Shown: positions 6,908 to 62,424 of the stretch, in pieces
Numbering within the stretch: position 1 is the stretch's first letter
How the letters are laid out: each line of letters opens with the position of its first letter
Assembly (NCBI GenBank): GCA_002104985.1
Contig: MCGO01000029.1
Coordinates: forward strand, 1-64,000
Direction: 5' to 3'
DNA: 64,000 nt
Source: Rhizoclosmatium globosum
Lineage: Eukaryota; Chytridiomycota; Chytridiomycetes; Chytridiales; Chytriomycetaceae
Notes under the pieces: model-generated
Seen by the model: the letters and a program-made list of their open reading frames with translations, nothing else
Told to the model about the DNA's origin: nothing
The model's database searches: none
Position numbers and translations under genes: made by a program

Positions 6908-9900
6908 TTAATCCATAGGCCAAAGTTCCAACTCCTTTAACGCAGCTCTTATAAGAGGCACACGTTCCTTATTATCAAGACTCCAAATATGCCGAAACGG
7001 TCCTTCATGCTTATAATGAAACTCATTGAACGTGTAAATACTCGTTGCGTTAAAATACCGCTGAAACACTCCGTAATTAAGTGCCCGTTGATCCCACGAG
7101 AACTGCTTCGTAACTTCCTGTGAAGATTTATCGGATCAACTACTCGACATTACCCATTTTCTGTTTTTTATACCTTCCATCGTGATACGTATTGGGTGAT
7201 TCCGTCAACAGTACTGTTGTTCTGTTCAACGGAATGGGATAGGTAGAATATTATGGAACTAAGACGTCGATGAGGTTTCCTCTGACGCTCACCTTGCCCT
7301 ATGTTATTCGATCGCGGTGGAATATCTCTTTGAGAATCCACTGGGTCTTTGACTGTTTGACATCACTCTTTACTGTTGTAAATAAACTGTAATATATATA
7401 AATAGAATTATGTTTACTACTTTCACTTCAGGATCCATCCTCATCAAAATAATGGCCTTGGTAATTTGCGCGACCTAAGGCAAGTGAGGATTTACCTTAG
7501 TGTTCGACGTAGAAATATCTCTCAAAATGCCATCGTTATCAATATCATGAATTGTTGACTTCCCAATCGGCAAATAGTCCCGATGGTTTTCTTTTTAAGT
7601 ATCTTGTTAAGCGTACCATTATCCTGTTGCAAGATAATCACAATGGTCCGAACAATGGAGGTAATTTTAACAACGTACCTCAAGTTTGGAGCAAAAAGAA
7701 CAACGTTTCCTAATCAAACCGAATCAGGACATGCCAGACACTAAAACGCTGTGAAAGTGTGGTTAGAAGAGGTTAGTGCGTCCCGTACCATTGCATTACT
7801 GAATAGATGGTGGCGCAAGAGGTGTTTGAGGTCAATCGTTCTATTAAAAAATGTCTATCAAATGGACAGGTTTGTTTTCACTTTGTTCAGGTTTCCTCTT
7901 CGACATTCGCCACCTGTGGAATCCAGTCTCGTTTCTTTCTTCTCTTCTTCTTTTCTACTTTATTTGGCCATCACATGATTCTCAACAAGTCCGTGATACA
8001 TTCCAAGCCATGACATTAGAATAGCTGACGTTGAACAAAACAAATAAATATCACGACTTTCGTATATGATCTACTGATATATTTCCTTACGAGAAGATTG
8101 CGCAAGTGCAGCACGCGCTTGGTTGGTGGCGCAGAATGGAAAGGCTTGCGTCAAAAATTCGATTTACAAGAGGTCACGTTGGCAACCACACTCACGAGAC
8201 TAATTGTGCTGTGTTTTTTGAACGCGTGAGTCTCAAAGCAAGCAGGCGCCACTTTGAAAATGGTATAAAGCCCCTTCTTCCTCACACCAACCAATCAGTA
8301 TTCAAAACCACTCCAACAAATGCTCTTGTCTCTTGTCTTGACTGTTGCCACCTTTGTCGCTGCCGCTCCAGCCGGCGAGCCTCTCCCACACAGTGTTTCT
8401 TGGCACTTGAAGGATGGTATCAAGAAGCACGAAGCTTTGAACCTTGCCGCTGCCTCCGCTCACTTGACATACTACGGAGGACCAGTCATTCCAAATGGTA
8501 CGTCCTTTATCCAATCACCAACATTCAATTTCTACTTATTAACAAATTTAAAAACAGTCGAGGTTCACCCAATCTTCTACGGTAACGCCAACTACCAATC
8601 TCAAACCAATGCTTTCTACGCTGCCGTCACTCAATCTTCTTGGTTCGATGTTTTCGCCCAATACAACGTTGGCCGAGGATCCGCTGTTCCAGGATTCTCC
8701 GTCTCTGCCACCAAGACATCTTTGGACGATGTCAACGACCTCCAACCTTTCCTCATCAACTTGGTCAAGGCCGGCACCATCAAGCCAACCGCCAACACCT
8801 ACTACCCAATCCACTTTGCTCCAGGAATCACCATCACTCAAGGCGGCAGTGCTTCTTGCTCCGTTTTCTGCGCATACCACGGAACCATTGACATTTCCTC
8901 TCTCAACGTTGGAACCAAGTACCTCTTCTACGGAGTCATGCCAGACCAAGGAGGCTCTTGTGCCGGTGGTTGTGGAAGCAACCCATCCCAAGTGAACAAC
9001 ATGTTCTCTGTCGCGTCCCACGAACTCGCTGAAGCTGTTACTGATGCCGCCGTCGGTCTTGCTACCGTGATTGGATCCCCACTTGCCTGGTACGACCAAA
9101 CCAACGGCGAGAACGGAGATATCTGTAACGCTCAGCAGGGAACTACTGTTGGTGGAGATGGAGTTACCTACGTGGTTCAGAAGACTTGGTCTAATGCTGA
9201 TAACGCGTGTTTGGCCAACAGTGGTAAGCCAGTGACGACTACTGCTGGTGGTGTCAAGACTACTACCACTGCCGCTGTTGTGAAGACTACTACTGCTGCT
9301 GTCAAGACCACTACTGCCGCTACCACCTGTGCCCACAGCAAGTGTGTCACTGGTGTTGCGTTGAGATCTTCTTGTGATGCCTGTGTTAGTAAAATTGTTG
9401 CTCAAGACAGCTACTGTGGATCCACTTCTTGGGACAGTGTTTGTGTTGGCGAGGTTAAGTCCATTTGTGGAATCACTTGCTAAATGTGGCAAACGCGTCA
9501 AGTATCTTTTTCTTGAAGTATACAACTTCTCTATGGTTTACAGTGGTTTACAGTTGCCCAGATCAGACTAGAAATAAATAAGTATTCTGATCTTAATGAA
9601 TGTATGGATTGAGTTTTTTTGAATTCTTCTTTGTTGCCTACTGCTAAGGTAGAGTGTGATCCCAACAGTACTCACCCTCATATGAATTGAAAGACAATAC
9701 AACTGCCGGAAGAATCCTGCAAGTCGATGTGTCTCCCTTTCATCAGGACTCAAATCAGATGCCCCGTATGTCCAATCTCGAATCAATTGTTTCCCGATTC
9801 GGTTGTTCTTGACGAGAAAGATTCCTGAACAGAGGTAGTCTCTCTTGTCCTCAACTCCAATCACTTTTACTGGCCATGGAGATGGAATTTCAAAGTCTCC

Positions 9901-53620: not shown

Positions 53621-54694
53621 ATGTCCAACACGACTTCTCAAGACTTGATCAATGTCCTCGGTCCACCCCTAAACTTCCTCCTGCTCGGCGTGATTCTCCA
53701 CATGTGCTTTCACGCGTTTTGCCTCTCAATGGCAAAGATAATCAGCAAACTCGTTTTCAAGACGGAAACGGGAAGTCTGTTTCTCAACTGGATAGTATGC
53801 GCCTTCAACGTTTCAGCAATCGTAAATGCTATATTCGCGTTCACTTTGACTGCAGTTCCTCTAACAACACAAAAGAGTTGTTTCATCGTCAACTTTTTGC
53901 AAAACATTACGTATCATCTTACACTTATTATTTTCGGTAGGGAATATATCATCAGTGATTGCTCATAGATGAACTGATTTTAAACTATGTTGTTCTGAAT
54001 TAGATTACTTGATTCTTTTCAAATCATACATTGCGACTCGTAAAAGCAGTGTCTTTGCGATAATAGCTGGACTAGCTTCCCTAAATCGATTGATATGGAC
54101 TATAGCGGATCTTTTCTGGTCTGAAGGAAGTTTCGAAGATGAAACATGTTCCTTGCTTCAAAACGCTCTTTCAGGGACACAATACGCTGTTGCTGATATC
54201 ATAATTGATGCTATTGGCACTCTTGGGGCAATGCACGCATTTTTTGCTGCGAATGCTCATTTGTTACCTTTGGATGGAATCTTTTACCATGTCATGAAAG
54301 AAAACGGTGAGTATTGTGTTAAGTTTTGAGTACACTGACTTCTTTCGCGGAAAGTCTTTCGAACCGTTCTTGTTTTGGCTGTCAACTGTGTTTTGATCTT
54401 CATCAACAGCATGAGCTCCAGTATGAACGAGAATATTAATTATATAGCCTCGCTATGCGGAGGCATCATCATCTATTTTTTAATGAATTTGGAGCTTTAC
54501 TGTGAGTGCTGGATTAATCCATTTCAAAATAGTATCTTTAAACATAGAAATTAGGGAAGGAATCTCGCAACAGGGAAGCAAGCAGCCCTTCGTTGAGTGG
54601 AAAACACAGCAATTTTGTGAACAATGTGAGCAATATTAATGCTCGGGTTAAGAGCAATCCCTTGACTGAGGTTCAGGACAAGAGTACCATATGA
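53621..54694 (+). CDS. Multipass (about seven-helix) membrane protein, unknown family
   Basis: Exons are 53621-53936, 54004-54306, 54355-54501 and 54555-54694, giving 301 aa. An N-terminal extracellular-like stretch with N-glycosylation sites (MSNTTSQ) is followed by hydrophobic segments around LLLGVILHMCFHAFCL, LNWIVCAFNVSAIVNAIFAFTL, ITYHLTLIIFGDYLILF, AIIAGLASLNRLIWTIADLFW, YAVADIIIDAIGTLGAMHAFF, VFRTVLVLAVNCVLIFINS and ASLCGGIIIYFLMNLELYW. The C-terminal tail is polar and Ser-rich. The helix count and orientation would fit a receptor-like protein, but no GPCR motif is evident. It is a tandem copy of the broken gene upstream. Confidence 0.78.
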
Positions 54695-54755
54695 ATAAGA
54701 TATTTTAATCAATTTAATATTCTCAACAAAGTCCGATTTTGAGATAAATAAAAGT

Positions 54756-56081
54756 TCACTTCTTTCCAAAGAACGAAGTCAGTGGCGCCATCCCCTTTGT
54801 TGACACGGGTTTCTTTGTTGAAGCTTTTGGAGCAGCTTTCCCAGTTGGCTGAAATATCCGATCAGCGTCGCACTCATAAAAACACGATCTAATCACCTTC
54901 TTTCCAGTGTCTGGTTTTTTAGCAGGCGCAGGTGGAGCAATCCGCGGGTCCGCATACACCGCTTTGGATAAATTGGTCGCGTTTAATGCAGCCTTGGTTA
55001 ACATACTGTTAAGTCTTCAAGTACGCGTCAGCATTCATTATATTCAAAATCTCGGGAGACATACCCCATCGCTTCCTTCAAAACTTCAGGCCATTTTCCA
55101 ACAGGGAGAACCTCACAAATAATTTTGTGCACCATCGTCTTTCGATGCTCTGTAATTTAATCAGTACTAAATACGCCAAGACGCTTCGCTGGAACGTAAA
55201 AAGTACCTTGCTTCTCCTCAGCGGATAAGCTATCTTCCCATTGCCCATTCACTTTCAGCAGAGAATATGATTCGTATTTTGCTAACAGCTTATTGGCTTT
55301 CTCAAGGAGCCATGCTTTCGTTTTGTCGTCGTTCAATCGATAGAATGTCATTCCCTTCACAGTGGCTAAATATTCGGACAAGGTTGGTCTTTGAGTTTCA
55401 AGAACTACTTCACGCACCGTCGACATCACAAATCAAACGCAGTTTCTCCTCGATTCCTTCCAGTTCTGCGAGTTGAGATAGAAGCGGATAGTTGTCTGAG
55501 TGAAGGATATTCTCAAGCTGCTCAAAACGACGGGCCGGGGCGTCGTTCTCTCCTCGATTCCTTTTTGATGGCGGCATTTCGTCTTCGTTTGTTGCGGTAG
55601 GAGACTCAAGCAAGGGAAGAAAGAGGAAAAGTGGATCGAATGGAGTCATCATCAGGAACGACCCATCTTAAGCCATGATTTAGTTTGCTGCCAACCCTGA
55701 ATCCATGGTGTACAACGTACCTTGCAGCACATTGTCGCCCACGAAGCAAGAGCGTTTGTCTGGACAGTTTGTTAATCATCAGTTGAAGAACAGGGCGAAG
55801 CAAGATACCGTCTGCGTGCCGTGTCACTTGCAACAGCGCCTTCTTGGACAACGCAAAGTACACGCTTTCTCCTGACGAAACACGTGTTTGTTTGTTTGTT
55901 TGTTTGGTACTTGAGTAGTAAGGTAATGCAAACCTGTCCGAGGATGTGGCAATGTCATGAGCGATGTCAGGCTGCCCTCTTCAACAACGCCCGTCGTTGC
56001 ACAATGAACTATTGCGAGTGTCGTGCCGGTTTTGTACTCGTCTGGTGTCGTTTGGTTGGAGGGGCCGAGCATTGAAACCAA
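54756..56081 (-). CDS. RNASEH2B: Ribonuclease H2 subunit B
   Basis: Starts at 56081 (MVSMLG) or 56072 (MLGPSN). Main exons: 56081-55934, 55871-55809, 55759-55721, 55666-55418, about 55365-55207, then the pieces EHRKTMVHKIICEVLPVGKW, GMLTKAALNATNL and the C-terminus to 54756. Spliced sequence contains LPHPRTGESVYFAL, DDKRSCFVGDNVLQDGSFLM followed by the family signature MMTPFDPLFLFLPLLE, a helix with LICDVD, and YRLNDDKTKAWLLEKANKL. The extreme C-terminus, MAPLTSFFGKK, is a PCNA-interacting (PIP) box as in animal RNase H2B. The complex removes ribonucleotides from DNA and RNA:DNA hybrids in the nucleus. One intron holds a TTTG microsatellite (55885-55907). The 48-nt segment before PTGKAAP may be an in-frame intron or coding. 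Confidence 0.87.
55885..55907. repeat. TTTG microsatellite
   Basis: About five tandem TTTG units in the first intron of the RNase H2B gene. Confidence 0.7.
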
Positions 56082-56342
56082 AACTCTCTCAAGAAACTCT
56101 TGAATAATCTCTGGAATAATCTAAAATACATCTAAAGGAATTCAAGAGCTCTTTCTTGGTTAACCTGATCCCCTGCGTTTGTCTTTGCATTTTAGGATTA
56201 AAGGTCTGGCTTGTATGCAGATCAACGCGTTTTTCATGCATCTTCTAGCCAATGTCATCCTACCGATCAAGACCCCTTCAATCACTATAATAAAGAGAAG
56301 GGTTTTTAATAATGTGAGTTCCAACACAACTTTTCCTTCAAA
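56082..56342. promoter_or_regulatory. Divergent promoter region
   Basis: 261 nt between the RNase H2B gene (minus) and the HD-domain gene (plus). It is AT-rich; short direct CTCAAGAAACTCTTG-type words occur near 56090-56110. No TATA box assigned. Confidence 0.35.
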
Positions 56343-57113: not shown

Positions 57114-60100
57114 TCAACCTCGCTTGGAACGAGAGGATCGTCCAGCCCTTTTCTCATCAACAACAACAACCTCTTCCATCACTTCATCTTCTTCAATAGC
57201 TTGTACAACCTTCGTCTTGTTTCCACCTCGTTTAGAAGACCTAATCTCTTCATGAACAACTTCAACTTCAGCCTCCTCAGCAACCTTTTTCGATTTCCCA
57301 GAAGATTTTACAGCAGACGGTTTCGCAACGTCGACATCGACAGAATGATCAACTTGCTTCTTACGACCACGACCCGTTTTCCCAGCAGGTGTTTTGGACG
57401 CTTGTTCAGCTTCTGGTTCTGGTTCTGAAGCAACCATTTTCTTGTTTGCGGGTTTCTTTGAGGCAGAAGTGAGTCCAGTTTCAGTTTCATCCATTTCAGC
57501 CTTGGGCGAAACAGTTTCCTTGGTTACATTTTTGCCTCGCTTCGATCGAGATGGCTCTTCAGCGGGCTCCACAACCTCTGGTTCGACCGCTTTGGCTGGC
57601 TTTCGTTTTCCTCCTTTCTTCAATGAAGTCTCAACTTCGACAATATCTGGCTCAATCTCATCTACATCAATAACATCAACAATTTTTGCACCGCGCTTGC
57701 CGTTTTTCTTCGCCTCGGTCGTTTCGACTGTTGATTCTTCTTGTGCAGTACTTCCAGCACCTCGGCGTTGTTTCGTCGAGACAGTCGGCTCCACTGGAGT
57801 TTCCTCAACAGCAGGAGCTTCATTGACAAGATTTCCGCCACGTTTGCCTTTCTTTGGTAACCGGGCAACATTTTGCTTGTGTGGTTGAACAAGAATAACT
57901 TCATCAACCGCTTCAGCTACATCTTCTTCAACATGCTTGACAGCACCACGCTTTCCTTTCCTGCCAGTTTTGGGCACCGAGTCTTCAGCTACTGATTCAG
58001 TCGGAATATCTTCAGTTATGGCGTCAATGTCCACAGATTTACCGACACGTTTCTTGGCAAGCATAGGCGCTGGAGCTTCTACATTAGAGTCTGTAGGACC
58101 ATCTTCCACAAAAGGTTCGACAGCAACAGCCTTCGCTCCACGCTTTCCTTTCTTTGGTGGAACAATCGCAGATACGACTGAAGCTTCAATTGCAGCTTCA
58201 ATTTCCATCGGTTGTTGATCTACTTCAACAGGTTCTTCTTTTCGTGACTTTCTGCCACGTCGTTTGACAGGTTTCTCCACTTCAATATCATCGTCAGCAC
58301 CGTCGACTACGTCGTTCTTTGAAATATTTCGTTTAGAAGCAATTGGCTTCATAGCAGAGGAATGTGGGATAGGCTCAGCAGAAACGGAAGGAGTAGATGG
58401 CTCTGCAACAGGAATGACCTCAGACATAGGCTCAGCGATAGTCTCCTCAACTGCTCCGAATTCAGCAGAAGTTCTACGAGAGTGGCAGCGACTGTTAGGT
58501 CGCATCAAAACAATTTCGTCGTCTGGAGCGAAAAGAGGTTGCGCTTCTGCAGGAGGTGCAATAGCAGGACCTGTAGAAATTCTTCGATGGCTTTTACGGG
58601 TACTACGCAACTGAGTTGTAACTTCTTCAGCAAGTTCGAGAACAGCTCCAGCAGGGCTTTGAGAAGCATCGGAGACTTTGACAGGAGATACTGGGTCAGC
58701 AATTTCTTCAGCGGGTGCAGTTGCAGGCTTCGTTCCTCGTTTTCGTCGAGCTGCGCGTTTCTTTGGCATCTTTTTGCCAATTTCTTCTTCTGGGTCTGGC
58801 GTGGTTTCCAGAACTGGTCCGCTTTGTTTCTGGACTTCCGGGTCTTCGTCAAGGTCCATGGGCTGAAATAAAGTTAGATTCTGTTATCAATTTCGAAAAA
58901 TGTCGGCTTCATACCAATTTTTCAGCTTCAATATCTGTAGATGTCTGGTTCTCAACAGGCGCATTGACCTCATCATCTACGATTTCCTGACTGTCCTCAA
59001 CAACAACAGTCTCGACTGGATCCGACTTCGCAACATCACACACTTCAGCCCCGACTTCTTCGGCAGAAACTTCATCAATAGGAACCTCAACCTCAACTTC
59101 AACCTCAACTTCTTCATACTCAGAGGCGTCATCGTCATCTTCCTCTTCCGTTGTTTGGGTCTTATCTGTCTCAACCACACCTTTCTCAATTTTGTCCACC
59201 TCAAGCGTTTCAACAGAATCCACAGATTTCCTAGTTTCATTCTCAAGATGGCCCGATTCCATTTTTTCAGCAACATCTTGATCAAGTCCTTGTGAATCAC
59301 CCACCACTTCCTTCAGTTCACCCATAACGACATCATCTACCTCATTCTCTTCATCTTCCGTAGCAATCACCGCGACAGATCCAGGCTCAACAAGAGCTTG
59401 AGAGCTAGGAGACACAATTCCAACAGATGTAACAGTATTCAAAGGTTCCTCATCGTCAGAAACGTTCATCTCGTCATCTGTGGAAACAGAGCCTGCACGA
59501 GATAGAGTCGCAGCAGTCGCGACGTTCGATTGACAATCTTCTCCATCGACTTCCTCAGATTCATGCACAACCTGATCCGCAGAACATTCAGCTTGCTCGA
59601 GGCTATCATCCACGACTATTGGTTCCTTCACACCAGTTTGTTCATTTGACTCAACAGCATCTTTATCGGCGAGGTCCATGGCCTGCTCAAGATCCATGGC
59701 AGTCTCCAACTCGCGCTGTTCAACAGCTTCATCATCTCGAGTAGCAGTAGCCTCCAATATTTCACTCGATATCTGGACAGGAACGGGTGTACCCTCAACC
59801 ATGCTCCCAACGCTTTCCCTCGCTCTAGGGGTCTTCTTGATACTACTCCCGATACCACGCGCAACAACAAGCTTTCTACCACTTCTGCGTGGACTATCTA
59901 GACCAGTCATTGCCGCAACAGGCGTTGCAGGTACTTCTACTTCCGCCTCAACAGGCACAGTGTTAAGTGGCTCAGCTTCTTTGATGGCAACCTCATCAGT
60001 TGTAGCACCGGTGGAAGGAGACACCGCCGCTCCGTAAAAGTTAGGCAACCCCTTTGGTGGAGGGACAAAACGGAACGCGTCCTTCAAACTCTTCTTCACA

Positions 60101-62424
60101 GGACTTGCAGTTCTAGGTCCCACAATGGGGACTGAGCGATTGTGACTCGCGCCAACGCGTCCAGTTGTCGCTGGCACTCCCGTAGCAGCTCGTGGCAGTG
60201 GGGTATATAAAGCAGAACCTCTCGTGGCAGATTTGATAAACGACTGAGACAAAGCACTTGGCGTTGAGCATTTTGTGACTTTGGATGGAGATGGTGCTGT
60301 GTATTGGAGAGTCTTACGCAGGGCAGATTTGAGAATGCTTCCAGGGGTGGTCGCAGTTGGAATCGACGAAGTCGCTTGACCGCGTTTAAGCGGAGTTGAG
60401 GCAGGCTGCCCCTTGTGGAAAATTTCAGGTTCCAGCTTGATTATATGGTTTAGTATTGTTATGGAATAAGATCACAGTCTTCACCTTTGGTCCAAATGTC
60501 ACTTTTTTTCTTGCACTACCACTTTCTCCGAGACCTTGTACAGCATGACTGGTGGGAGTCATAGATCCAGATGGTTCGACTGTTTTCTCGGCAAGTGGCT
60601 CCTGTTCAGCTTCACCAGCGACCGCACTGATATCCTCAGTTTCTGTAATCGACTCAACGGAGTTTACATTGGTATCAGTTTCTTCATTGGTGGTGGGCTC
60701 TGGAATGCTAGATTCTATGATATCTGGAATCAAGGGCTCCATAACGCTGGCAGACTCTTGGTCACCCATCATCAGCAAGTCGTCGACACTATGAGGTATA
60801 TCGGCATCGAGCTGCTCTGTAGGCCCTTCGGCATCCTCAACGTCTTCGTTCCCTCCAGTTACTTCCTCTACCTCCAACGAATCTTTAACAACGTCATTCT
60901 TTGGCGTGTCGTTGTCTTCTTCCATAGTAACACGTTTCGGCTCAACAACTCGTGCAGCAGATTGACGTGCCGGAATTGCAGGAATTCTTCCACTCCTCAA
61001 CCCAACACCAGCACTTCTTGCTCCAACTCCCAGCACCGTAGTCGTTGGAACAGGGCGGTTACTCCACAAACTCCTGGGCACACTCTTAATAACACCCTCC
61101 ATCAGAGTCTGCCCTCTAACCGACGTACCCGCGTCAGGAGTAACAGCCTTCCTCGCCCCCTTCGGCCGAGGCGTATCCCCCATCAATCCCTCCTCCACTC
61201 CTTTCACCTCCTCCAAACCCCCAGCTAAAGCCCTACTACTAGGTGACTGCACCCCACTATCATCAAACGGATTCTCATCCTCCCCACCACCACCGCTAGA
61301 ACCATTCCTCCTTCCACCAGTAGTTGGCGTCGCAGGCTCAGACCCAACAGGACTACTCACATCCGCACAACCCCCCACCGTCGGCGCAACACAAACTCTC
61401 AATGGCGTCGCCCCCAAAACCCGTTTCAATGGAAGCGCGGAATACGTCACCGCCGACGAATCTTTCAGTTTCTCAGCAAAAGATTTTTCTGGTGCTGTGC
61501 TGGGGACTTGGTAACCCGCTGAAGTGCGTCGCCGTTTTGGGGTTTCGAGTTCAAGGGGAGGGGGAGGGGGAGGTTGTGGAGCGACGAGTTTGCGGGTGGT
61601 TGCGGGGACGGGTATTAGTTTTGATGGGGATTTAGGGTATGTGTGTGAATGGGCGGATGATGCGAGAATACGGCCTGGTGTGACTGTGTTTGTTTCGGGG
61701 TGGTCTTCGAGGTATTGTTTGATTTGGGCCTGTTTTTGGAATGGATATGTGAGTGATTTATTGATGGTGGGAGGGGAGACTTACAGTGACAGGGTATTCG
61801 AAGCGGAAGGAGCGAGATTGAATGGTAAACAAGTCTCCATCTTTCAGTTCCACTTTGTTTGGCGTCCCATCTTCTGCCACACCCATTTCTTCTCCATTCA
61901 GCAGAGTTCCATTGGAGCTCTTATCTTGGAGGTAAACCTTATAGATGGAAGTGTACAGTTAGATACAAGATGCTCAGTTATGCGTACACCCAACCCACCT
62001 TTCTAGTAGCAGGATCCACAGATAGAATACAATGAAACCGGGAAACTTCTTCAAAGCGCACGCGGATTGTACAGTTCTGGTCTCTGTGGTAGAGAGCATT
62101 CACATTAAGTCAGGCTGTCAAACCGGATGTTCCCCCCTTTGCCACATCCCGCCCTTCCCCTCTGTCCCCCCGAATCAAACTCTAAACGAGAAGTTACCTT
62201 CCAAACGAAACAGTTTCCTGATTGACCGGGTATGCACTGTCACTCAAGTGTAAGCACTTCACTATAGTCCAAGCACTGATATCAACAAACCTTCCGTCTT
62301 CCCCATTCCTTCTAATGACTACTATCCGCCCAAACGACCCCATTTGAAGTACAAATGCGGTGGCGGGTGAAACCAAAAGCGGATTGACTTGGCCGCGGTT
62401 TGGCGTTGCGGCGGCCAAAAGCAT
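57114..62424 (-). CDS. Ki-67-like FHA protein with PP1-docking motif and charge-block repeats
   Basis: Exons are 62424-62291, 62236-62198, 62083-61999, 61937-61785, 61729-60485, 60435-58915 and 58862-57114, giving 1,641 aa, all joints in phase. The FHA domain is at the N-terminus (about residues 28-130): GRIVVIRRNGEDG, ETVSFGRDQNCTIRV, VSRFHCIL, LQDKSSNGTLLNG. Around residue 545-570 lies KVTFGPKLEPEIF followed by TPLKRG, matching in sequence and spacing the PP1-binding segment of Ki-67/RepoMan (RVSFG..L.PELF...TPLKRG). A GSILK (SILK-type) motif is about 12 residues later. The remaining 1,000 residues are disordered: first Ser/Thr/Pro-rich with acidic blocks, then acidic spacers alternating with basic KxGKRG words, ending SSRSKRG. 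Probable mitotic chromosome or nucleolar scaffold recruiting PP1; inferred from architecture. Confidence 0.85.
57118..58270 (-). repeat. Degenerate KxGKRG charge-block repeats in the FHA protein
   Basis: In the last exon, basic words such as KKGKRGAK, RKGKRGAV, KKGKRGGN, KNGKRGAK, KGGKRKPAK, RSKRGKN, SSKRGGNK and the terminal SSRSKRG recur every 30-50 residues. They are separated by acidic stretches rich in Glu, Val and Pro. Confidence 0.75.

Follow-up and report, generated by a model that had tools for sequence, protein, structure and literature searches.

A predicted Ki-67-family gene with an animal-type PP1-docking segment in a chytrid fungus

A stretch of 64,000 nucleotides (nt) from the genome of Rhizoclosmatium globosum, a chytrid (that is, a swimming-spore fungus), was analysed here and is referred to as the window. 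Its minus strand, to which all gene coordinates below refer, carries at positions 57114..62424 a gene whose predicted product of 1641 residues very probably belongs to the family of Ki-67, the human cell-division marker, and is predicted to dock PP1. The protein combines an N-terminal FHA domain with a distant RVxF-PELF-TPLKRG segment. The protein most probably represents a fungal orthologue within the Ki-67 family, and it would bring PP1 to chromosomes at mitotic exit; binding, timing and location are what we infer.

The FHA domain and the PP1-docking segment

The FHA domain covers approximately residues 28-136 (61788..62343), and Pfam recognised it, above the cut-off, as PF00498 at residues 54-125 (expectation value, E, of 1.7e-13). 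Pfam listed three families for the whole protein, the third of which, Yop-YscD_cpl, was under its cut-off and overlapped the FHA domain. In a PDB search with the first 636 residues, the best match was the FHA domain of human Ki-67, represented by two chains (2.5e-11 and 3.2e-11), and the next different protein followed at 9.2e-5. A profile of seven chytrid-only FHA pieces also placed Ki-67 at the top (8.6e-17, with the next different protein at 5.2e-8), and the window FHA domain alone found ray Ki-67 at 1.1e-12 in a protein search. Together with the tree described below, the Pfam, PDB and chytrid-profile results identify this domain as an N-terminal FHA domain of the Ki-67 type.

The second element was recognised by Pfam as PP1_bind (PF15276) at residues 544-590, with a score of 37.7 bits over a cut-off of 27. 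The PP1 segment proper, residues 546-571, is made up of RVxF, PELF and KiR-like parts and includes the TPL(K/R)(K/R)G pattern. Its RVxF half, KVTFGPK (residues 546-552, 60485..60505), was delimited by the gene model, Pfam and the alignment with RepoMan; its PELF and KiR-like half, LEPEIFHKGQPASTPLKRG (residues 553-571, 60379..60435), was recognised by PF15276, a chytrid PP1 profile, the RepoMan alignment and conservation. The complete segment, KVTFGPKLEPEIFHKGQPASTPLKRG, was aligned without gaps to the RepoMan 26-mer, with 14/26 identical residues and a BLOSUM62 score of 82, as compared with a best score of 39 in 2000 shuffles of the protein and of 26 at the second-best site within it. This alignment bears out the proposal of the first-pass annotation that the whole pattern of about 26 residues occurs here at identical spacing. 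The Thr at the x position of RVxF and the TP of TPLKRG are the same as in RepoMan.

In addition, the PDB search with the first 636 residues matched the RepoMan and Ki-67 PP1 peptides at 2.6e-4 to 1.9e-3, and a profile of eight chytrid-only PP1 pieces retrieved from PDB, at E <= 10, three distinct sequences, two from RepoMan and one from Ki-67. In the Swiss-Prot search of PMC5005033, the KiR-type PP1 dock was confined to Ki-67 and RepoMan. A protein search with the PP1 region gave a single match, from Siphonaria. When the contigs of the R. globosum assembly were searched with PF15276, no match was obtained, even for the split domain of the gene itself, probably because an intron divides the domain, and a second gene of this type is possible.

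Conservation among chytrids and relationship to Ki-67

A search with the window FHA domain, in which 149 candidates were considered, led to seven proteins, six of them from chytrids (five species) and the remaining one a ray Ki-67. The FHA profile search, with 8000 candidates scored, listed at least 15 matches; the profile included ray Ki-67, so that its vertebrate matches are not independent. This search newly added Rhizoclosmatium hyalinum (a partial protein covering 29% of the query at 93% identity), Obelidium (an FHA piece of 107 residues, P0009) and Cladochytrium tenue. It also matched five vertebrate Ki-67 proteins and four FHA proteins devoid of PP1_bind, two of these at E 0.24 and 1.0. 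The FHA matches P0016-P0019 were dropped as kin, PP1_bind being absent from their Pfam lists. No basidiomycete, ascomycete or protein named bridgin was present among the matches listed in three protein searches, which reach only close relatives by shared words.

According to precomputed Pfam lists, FHA and PP1_bind are found in one protein in Podochytrium, Chytriomyces MP71, Siphonaria, C. cf. hyalinus and Cladochytrium, and two Physocladia models have PP1_bind only. Cladochytrium belongs to the Cladochytriales, and Rhizoclosmatium, Physocladia, Podochytrium, Siphonaria, Chytriomyces and Obelidium to the Chytridiales; the five two-domain chytrid proteins besides that of the window come thus from two orders.

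Mean identity to six chytrid proteins, calculated without P0008, P0009 and P0015 and, in the case of P0007, without its first 430 residues, was 0.69 for the PP1 26-mer and 0.60 for the FHA domain, the latter value being depressed by models in which FHA exons are missing. The corresponding values were 0.19 for the linker, 0.24 beyond residue 600 and 0.26 for the whole protein. Identity was higher in the PP1 segment than in the FHA domain in 5/6 of these proteins and lower in Podochytrium. As judged from these sequences, the PP1 segment is kept about as strongly as the FHA domain and far above all else. Of the ten chytrid proteins compared, including that of the window, nine contain the segment, the exception being the FHA fragment from Obelidium. 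Orthologues that keep the rest of the protein and lose KVTF...TPLKRG, a case that the first-pass annotation had named as refuting its proposal, were therefore not encountered.

A tree of FHA domains was built from 24 rows, corresponding to seven chytrid proteins, five vertebrate Ki-67 proteins and 12 others, namely six domains from the same genome (entered from 13 read among its 36 FHA matches), Vps64 and five domains from P0016-P0018. Sequences lacking FHA exons (P0005, P0007) or the FHA domain (P0008), near copies (P0011, P0013) and P0019 were not entered. In this tree, the chytrid and vertebrate Ki-67 rows were placed together on one side of a branch with support of 91/99. The kinship to Ki-67 proposed in the first-pass annotation is thus upheld by the FHA and PP1 profiles, the domain order, the FHA tree and the conservation among chytrids.

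Gene model, gene copies and selection

Joining of the seven exons results in one open frame of 1641 residues, and GT-AG borders were found in 6/6 introns. Exon 1 (62291..62424) contains the start codon and the beginning of the FHA domain and ends at the donor GTTTGT; the domain continues through exon 2 (62198..62236) and exon 3 (61999..62083) and ends in exon 4 (61785..61937), with introns 1-3 inside its span. Intron 1 (62237..62290) is 54 nt long in the window and 56 nt long in the two further copies of the gene described below, so that a frameshift would result in those copies if it were retained. The joint between exons 1 and 2 is as predicted in 4/6 aligned homologue models (P0001, P0002, P0004, P0009), and the stretch corresponding to exon 2 is absent from the other two (P0003, P0015). 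Exon 5 (60485..61729) encodes a poorly conserved linker and the RVxF half of the PP1 segment. It is followed by intron 5 (60436..60484), a phase 0 intron of 49 nt in all three copies, which separates KVTFGPK from LEPEIF exactly as had been noted at first. Exon 6 (58915..60435) encodes the remainder of the PP1 domain, conserved chytrid blocks and an acidic middle, and exon 7 (57114..58862) the C-terminal third, in which Lys/Arg-Gly patches alternate with acidic ones. The coordinates given previously were right, as was the placing of an FHA domain and a distant PP1 motif, with about 410 residues between them, in one spliced gene. As a predicted gene model, the gene, its motif and its architecture are confirmed to be real.

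In the assembly (56.9 Mb, 420 contigs), the gene was located on three contigs, C212 (that of the window), C139 and C411. The C411 copy is intact. The C139 copy carries a one-base insertion near the start, in exon 1, that breaks the frame (locus L029) and is perhaps an assembly error or a real allele. The flank at 54000-56300 is collinear on C139, C411 and a fourth contig, C255, with 93-97% identity, so the assembly seems to contain several haplotypes or homeologues. Introns 2 and 4 of C411 likewise differ by 2 nt from those of the window copy, and length differences of this size in introns 1, 2 and 4 fit introns rather than coding sequence.

Comparison of the C212 and C411 copies over the whole gene gave a synonymous divergence (Ks) of 0.096 and a non-synonymous divergence (Ka) of 0.028. 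Five synonymous and no non-synonymous changes were counted in residues 25-140, and four synonymous and two non-synonymous changes in residues 541-660. These counts, small as they are, indicate purifying selection on the predicted protein, acting most strongly on the FHA domain.

Elsewhere in the window, positions 1475-2653 and 8065-9224 contain three inverted arm pairs of 207-678 nt that are 95-100% identical, and on these arms a similar gene occurs twice, once in each orientation.

Linker, C-terminal tail and PP1 genes

The linker and middle are acidic, with an isoelectric point (pI) of 4.7 that falls to 4.1 in the second quarter after the PP1 domain, and the acidic middle has a net charge of -54 across 258 residues. 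The protein contains 33 SP/TP sites, versus 22.1 expected (standard deviation 4.0). Charge-block variance in the last 520 residues was 8.65, as compared with 3.41 (standard deviation 0.48) in 300 shuffles. Corresponding real and shuffled values in vertebrate Ki-67 were 7.34 and 3.75 in flounder, 5.20 and 3.11 in ray, and 4.25 and 3.35 in crane; the charge blocking in the tail of the window protein is thus flounder-like, being weaker in ray and hardly present in crane. No PP2A-B56 motif was found at a shared position, as judged by eye. Conserved chytrid blocks were also observed at residues 587-606 (LKSALRKTL...), 663-682 (SPVKKSLKDAFRFVPP) and 720-739 (VPATPV...SPRRSGR), with mean identities of 0.53-0.57.

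Eleven matches to the PPP N-terminal region were obtained in the R. globosum genome, and the eight loci read comprised six of the PP1 type and two of another PPP type. A loop arginine and a Glu/Phe pair, which we take to correspond to Arg20, Glu77 and Phe81, are kept in 6/6 of the PP1-type loci. Arg20, Glu77 and Phe81 of PP1-gamma order the KiR pocket and have been tied to Ki-67/RepoMan selectivity (PMC5005033). A NIFK-like stretch was observed at about position 1501 of locus L053 (G000:C21:87145-87192), with 19.7 bits against a cut-off of 25.

Discussion

The likely mechanism of the R. globosum protein is PP1 docking at mitotic exit, in which docking, timing and location are again points that we infer. 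The charged C-terminal patches would hold chromatin, and the FHA domain would bind a phosphothreonine partner. In early mitosis, phosphorylation by Cdk1 and Aurora B would keep PP1 off, the putative control sites being the Thr of KVTF (an Aurora B site in RepoMan) and the Thr of TPLKRG (of the Cdk1 type). In anaphase, the segment 546-571 would clamp PP1, which, once docked, would reverse mitotic phosphorylation on chromosomes. Chytrid mitoses have been described as semi-open (PMC12659703).

Several observations weigh against a Ki-67-family protein acting in this way. The loop arginine of the PP1-type loci is perhaps, we assume, ordinary in fungal PP1, in which case it does not discriminate. 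The NIFK family of FHA-binding proteins appeared in the genome only below its cut-off, in an exon-by-exon search that can miss a gene, and no RRM gene was recognised by eye around the NIFK-like stretch. The strict KiR short linear motif (KiR-SLiM), FDxxLP(P/A)N(T/S)PL(R/K)(R/K)Gx(T/S)P according to the consensus in PMC5005033, agrees with the window protein at 9 of the 14 positions that it defines, and EP takes the place of the SP in LSPEVF. When the best 20 residues of each element were compared, conservation was higher in the FHA domain (residues 28-47, 0.83) than in the PP1 segment (residues 548-567, 0.67). In the FHA tree, the support of 91 is under the level of 95 at which branches are starred, several members of the outgroup have long branches, and Cladochytrium is placed apart in the best tree, so that the chytrid rows do not form a single clade. 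The last 300 residues have a net charge of 0 and a pI of 6.9, with no plainly basic tail; the value for this region is at least +7 in 4/7 other chytrid proteins computed (P0001, P0005, P0007, P0015). BLAST of the C-terminal region against vertebrate Ki-67 was no better than with reversed controls, and the Ki-67 repeats (PF08065) were not found by Pfam in the window protein. These repeats are not listed for ray Ki-67 (P0006) either, and so do not mark every Ki-67 member. The CD motif, searched for with an assumed letter pattern, occurred in 0/8 chytrid and 4/4 vertebrate proteins. This motif has been described from mammals and 'all homologues' (PMC4841783). Both the repeats and CD may have been gained within animals.

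Four other explanations of these data were considered. A gene-model artefact, by which two adjacent genes, one with the FHA domain and the other with the PP1 motif, would have been merged on paper, is extremely improbable: the model was indeed derived purely from DNA sequence, and models of this family are error-prone, four of them lacking FHA stretches (P0003, P0005, P0007, P0015), but the gene occurs in three copies with collinear surroundings, one besides that of the window being intact, intron 1 is 2 nt longer in the other copies, and both Pfam domains are listed in a single protein for five database models. It is also very unlikely that an unrelated fungal FHA protein acquired a look-alike of the animal PP1 segment by convergence. 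Short motifs do evolve repeatedly, the C-termini cannot be aligned, and the strict KiR consensus is reached only in part; against this, the FHA domain and the PP1 segment independently select Ki-67 and RepoMan/Ki-67 as best in PDB, the same domain order recurs in one protein across two chytrid orders, and the FHA rows group with the support given above.

A Ki-67-family protein might, on the other hand, work elsewhere. A mainly interphase role as an organiser of nucleolus or heterochromatin, with PP1 docking secondary, would have parallels in vertebrate Ki-67, which organises heterochromatin (PMC4841783) and the nucleolar surface (PMC13144362); we regard it as unlikely, since, the FHA domain apart, no region is better conserved than the PP1 segment, which argues for constrained docking, although interphase work could go along with it. 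A more serious but still tentative possibility, which overlaps with the preferred reading, is a kinetochore linker resembling bridgin, a protein of Cryptococcus, in place of a chromosome-surface scaffold. The outer kinetochore would then recruit the FHA domain and the middle, the tail would sit on centromeric chromatin, and PP1 would act at kinetochores. Bridgin, the sole studied fungal relative, is a kinetochore protein that peaks in anaphase, has PP1 among its pull-down proteins, and consists of an FHA domain, an acidic disordered middle and a strongly basic tail of pI 11.20 (PMC7794384); an acidic middle is found in the window protein as well. Sequence kinship of the window protein to bridgin is putative, no protein of that name and no basidiomycete or ascomycete being among the matches listed in the three protein searches described above, and this possibility is opposed by the position of the PP1 site and by the last 300 residues, which are not net basic.

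The preferred reading remains that of a Ki-67-family protein that would recruit PP1 to chromosomes at mitotic exit. It is not the first fungal relative of Ki-67 to be described, as the first-pass annotation had supposed: bridgin (Bgi1) has been published as a fungal Ki-67-like homologue (PMC7794384) and is reported to be kept in other fungal phyla (review PMC9252888), and three chytrid copies have been named automatically by NCBI as 'antigen identified by monoclonal antibody Ki-67'. In the openly licensed PMC literature, no work dealing with Ki-67 in chytrids or with a KiR-type dock in fungi was recognised among the matches listed. The narrower claim of a fungal member with an animal-type RVxF-KiR PP1 dock stands on present evidence.

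The chytrid gene suggests that the Ki-67 scaffold is older than the animal-fungal split. We lean slightly towards a scenario in which the animal-fungal ancestor already had a Ki-67 with an FHA head and an animal-type dock, kept by chytrids, and in which the bridgin of later fungi is derived, its dock having been lost or moved. If true, mitotic exit by way of the Ki-67-PP1 phosphatase would be fundamental to opisthokonts, perhaps in connection with open or semi-open mitosis, and the Ki-67 repeats would have been added later, in animals. With a dock-bearing copy in a fungus, an outgroup would become available for the question of the first function of Ki-67. Furthermore, Rhizoclosmatium is grown as a laboratory chytrid, for which life-stage RNA-seq (PMC8887899, PMC12659703) and imaging of semi-open mitosis (PMC12659703) have been published, and such resources make PP1 recruitment testable apart from the vertebrate repeats.

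Comparison with known systems

The published Ki-67 alignment spans from human to Hydra and Trichoplax, and the Ki-67/RepoMan phylogeny covers animals only (PMC4032110). The window protein shares with Ki-67 (MKI67) an N-terminal FHA domain of the same sub-type and the RVxF-PELF-TPLKRG PP1 segment, whose parts follow one another in identical order and spacing over 26 residues, and with flounder Ki-67 in particular a strongly charge-blocked tail of net charge near zero. It differs in the lack of repeats, CD motif and alignable C-terminus, and in keeping the strict KiR consensus partly. Where Ki-67 has a leucine/arginine-rich C-terminal region that binds chromatin, the window protein has a charge-patched tail whose alignment did not exceed that of reversed controls. 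RepoMan (CDCA2) resembles it in the PP1 segment, including the Thr in RVTF. However, RepoMan shares with Ki-67 just the short PP1 region (PMC5005033), whereas the window protein has an FHA domain, and the RepoMan arrangement of a PP1 segment without FHA was therefore not found here.

The comparison with bridgin was made from its published description. In both proteins the FHA domain comes first and the middle is acidic. On the contrary, the PP1 site of bridgin, residues 161-164, lies just after the FHA domain and is termed 'unconventional', whereas that of the window protein is of the animal type and about 410 residues away, and the strongly basic tail of bridgin (PMC7794384) contrasts with the net charge of 0 in the last 300 residues of the window protein. 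The MOON proteins of corals (PMC11417379) share the succession of FHA domain, PP1_bind and, in their case, a repetitive C-terminus; the coral repeats are regular and have been shown to bind DNA, whereas the patches of the window protein are irregular and their DNA binding is putative.

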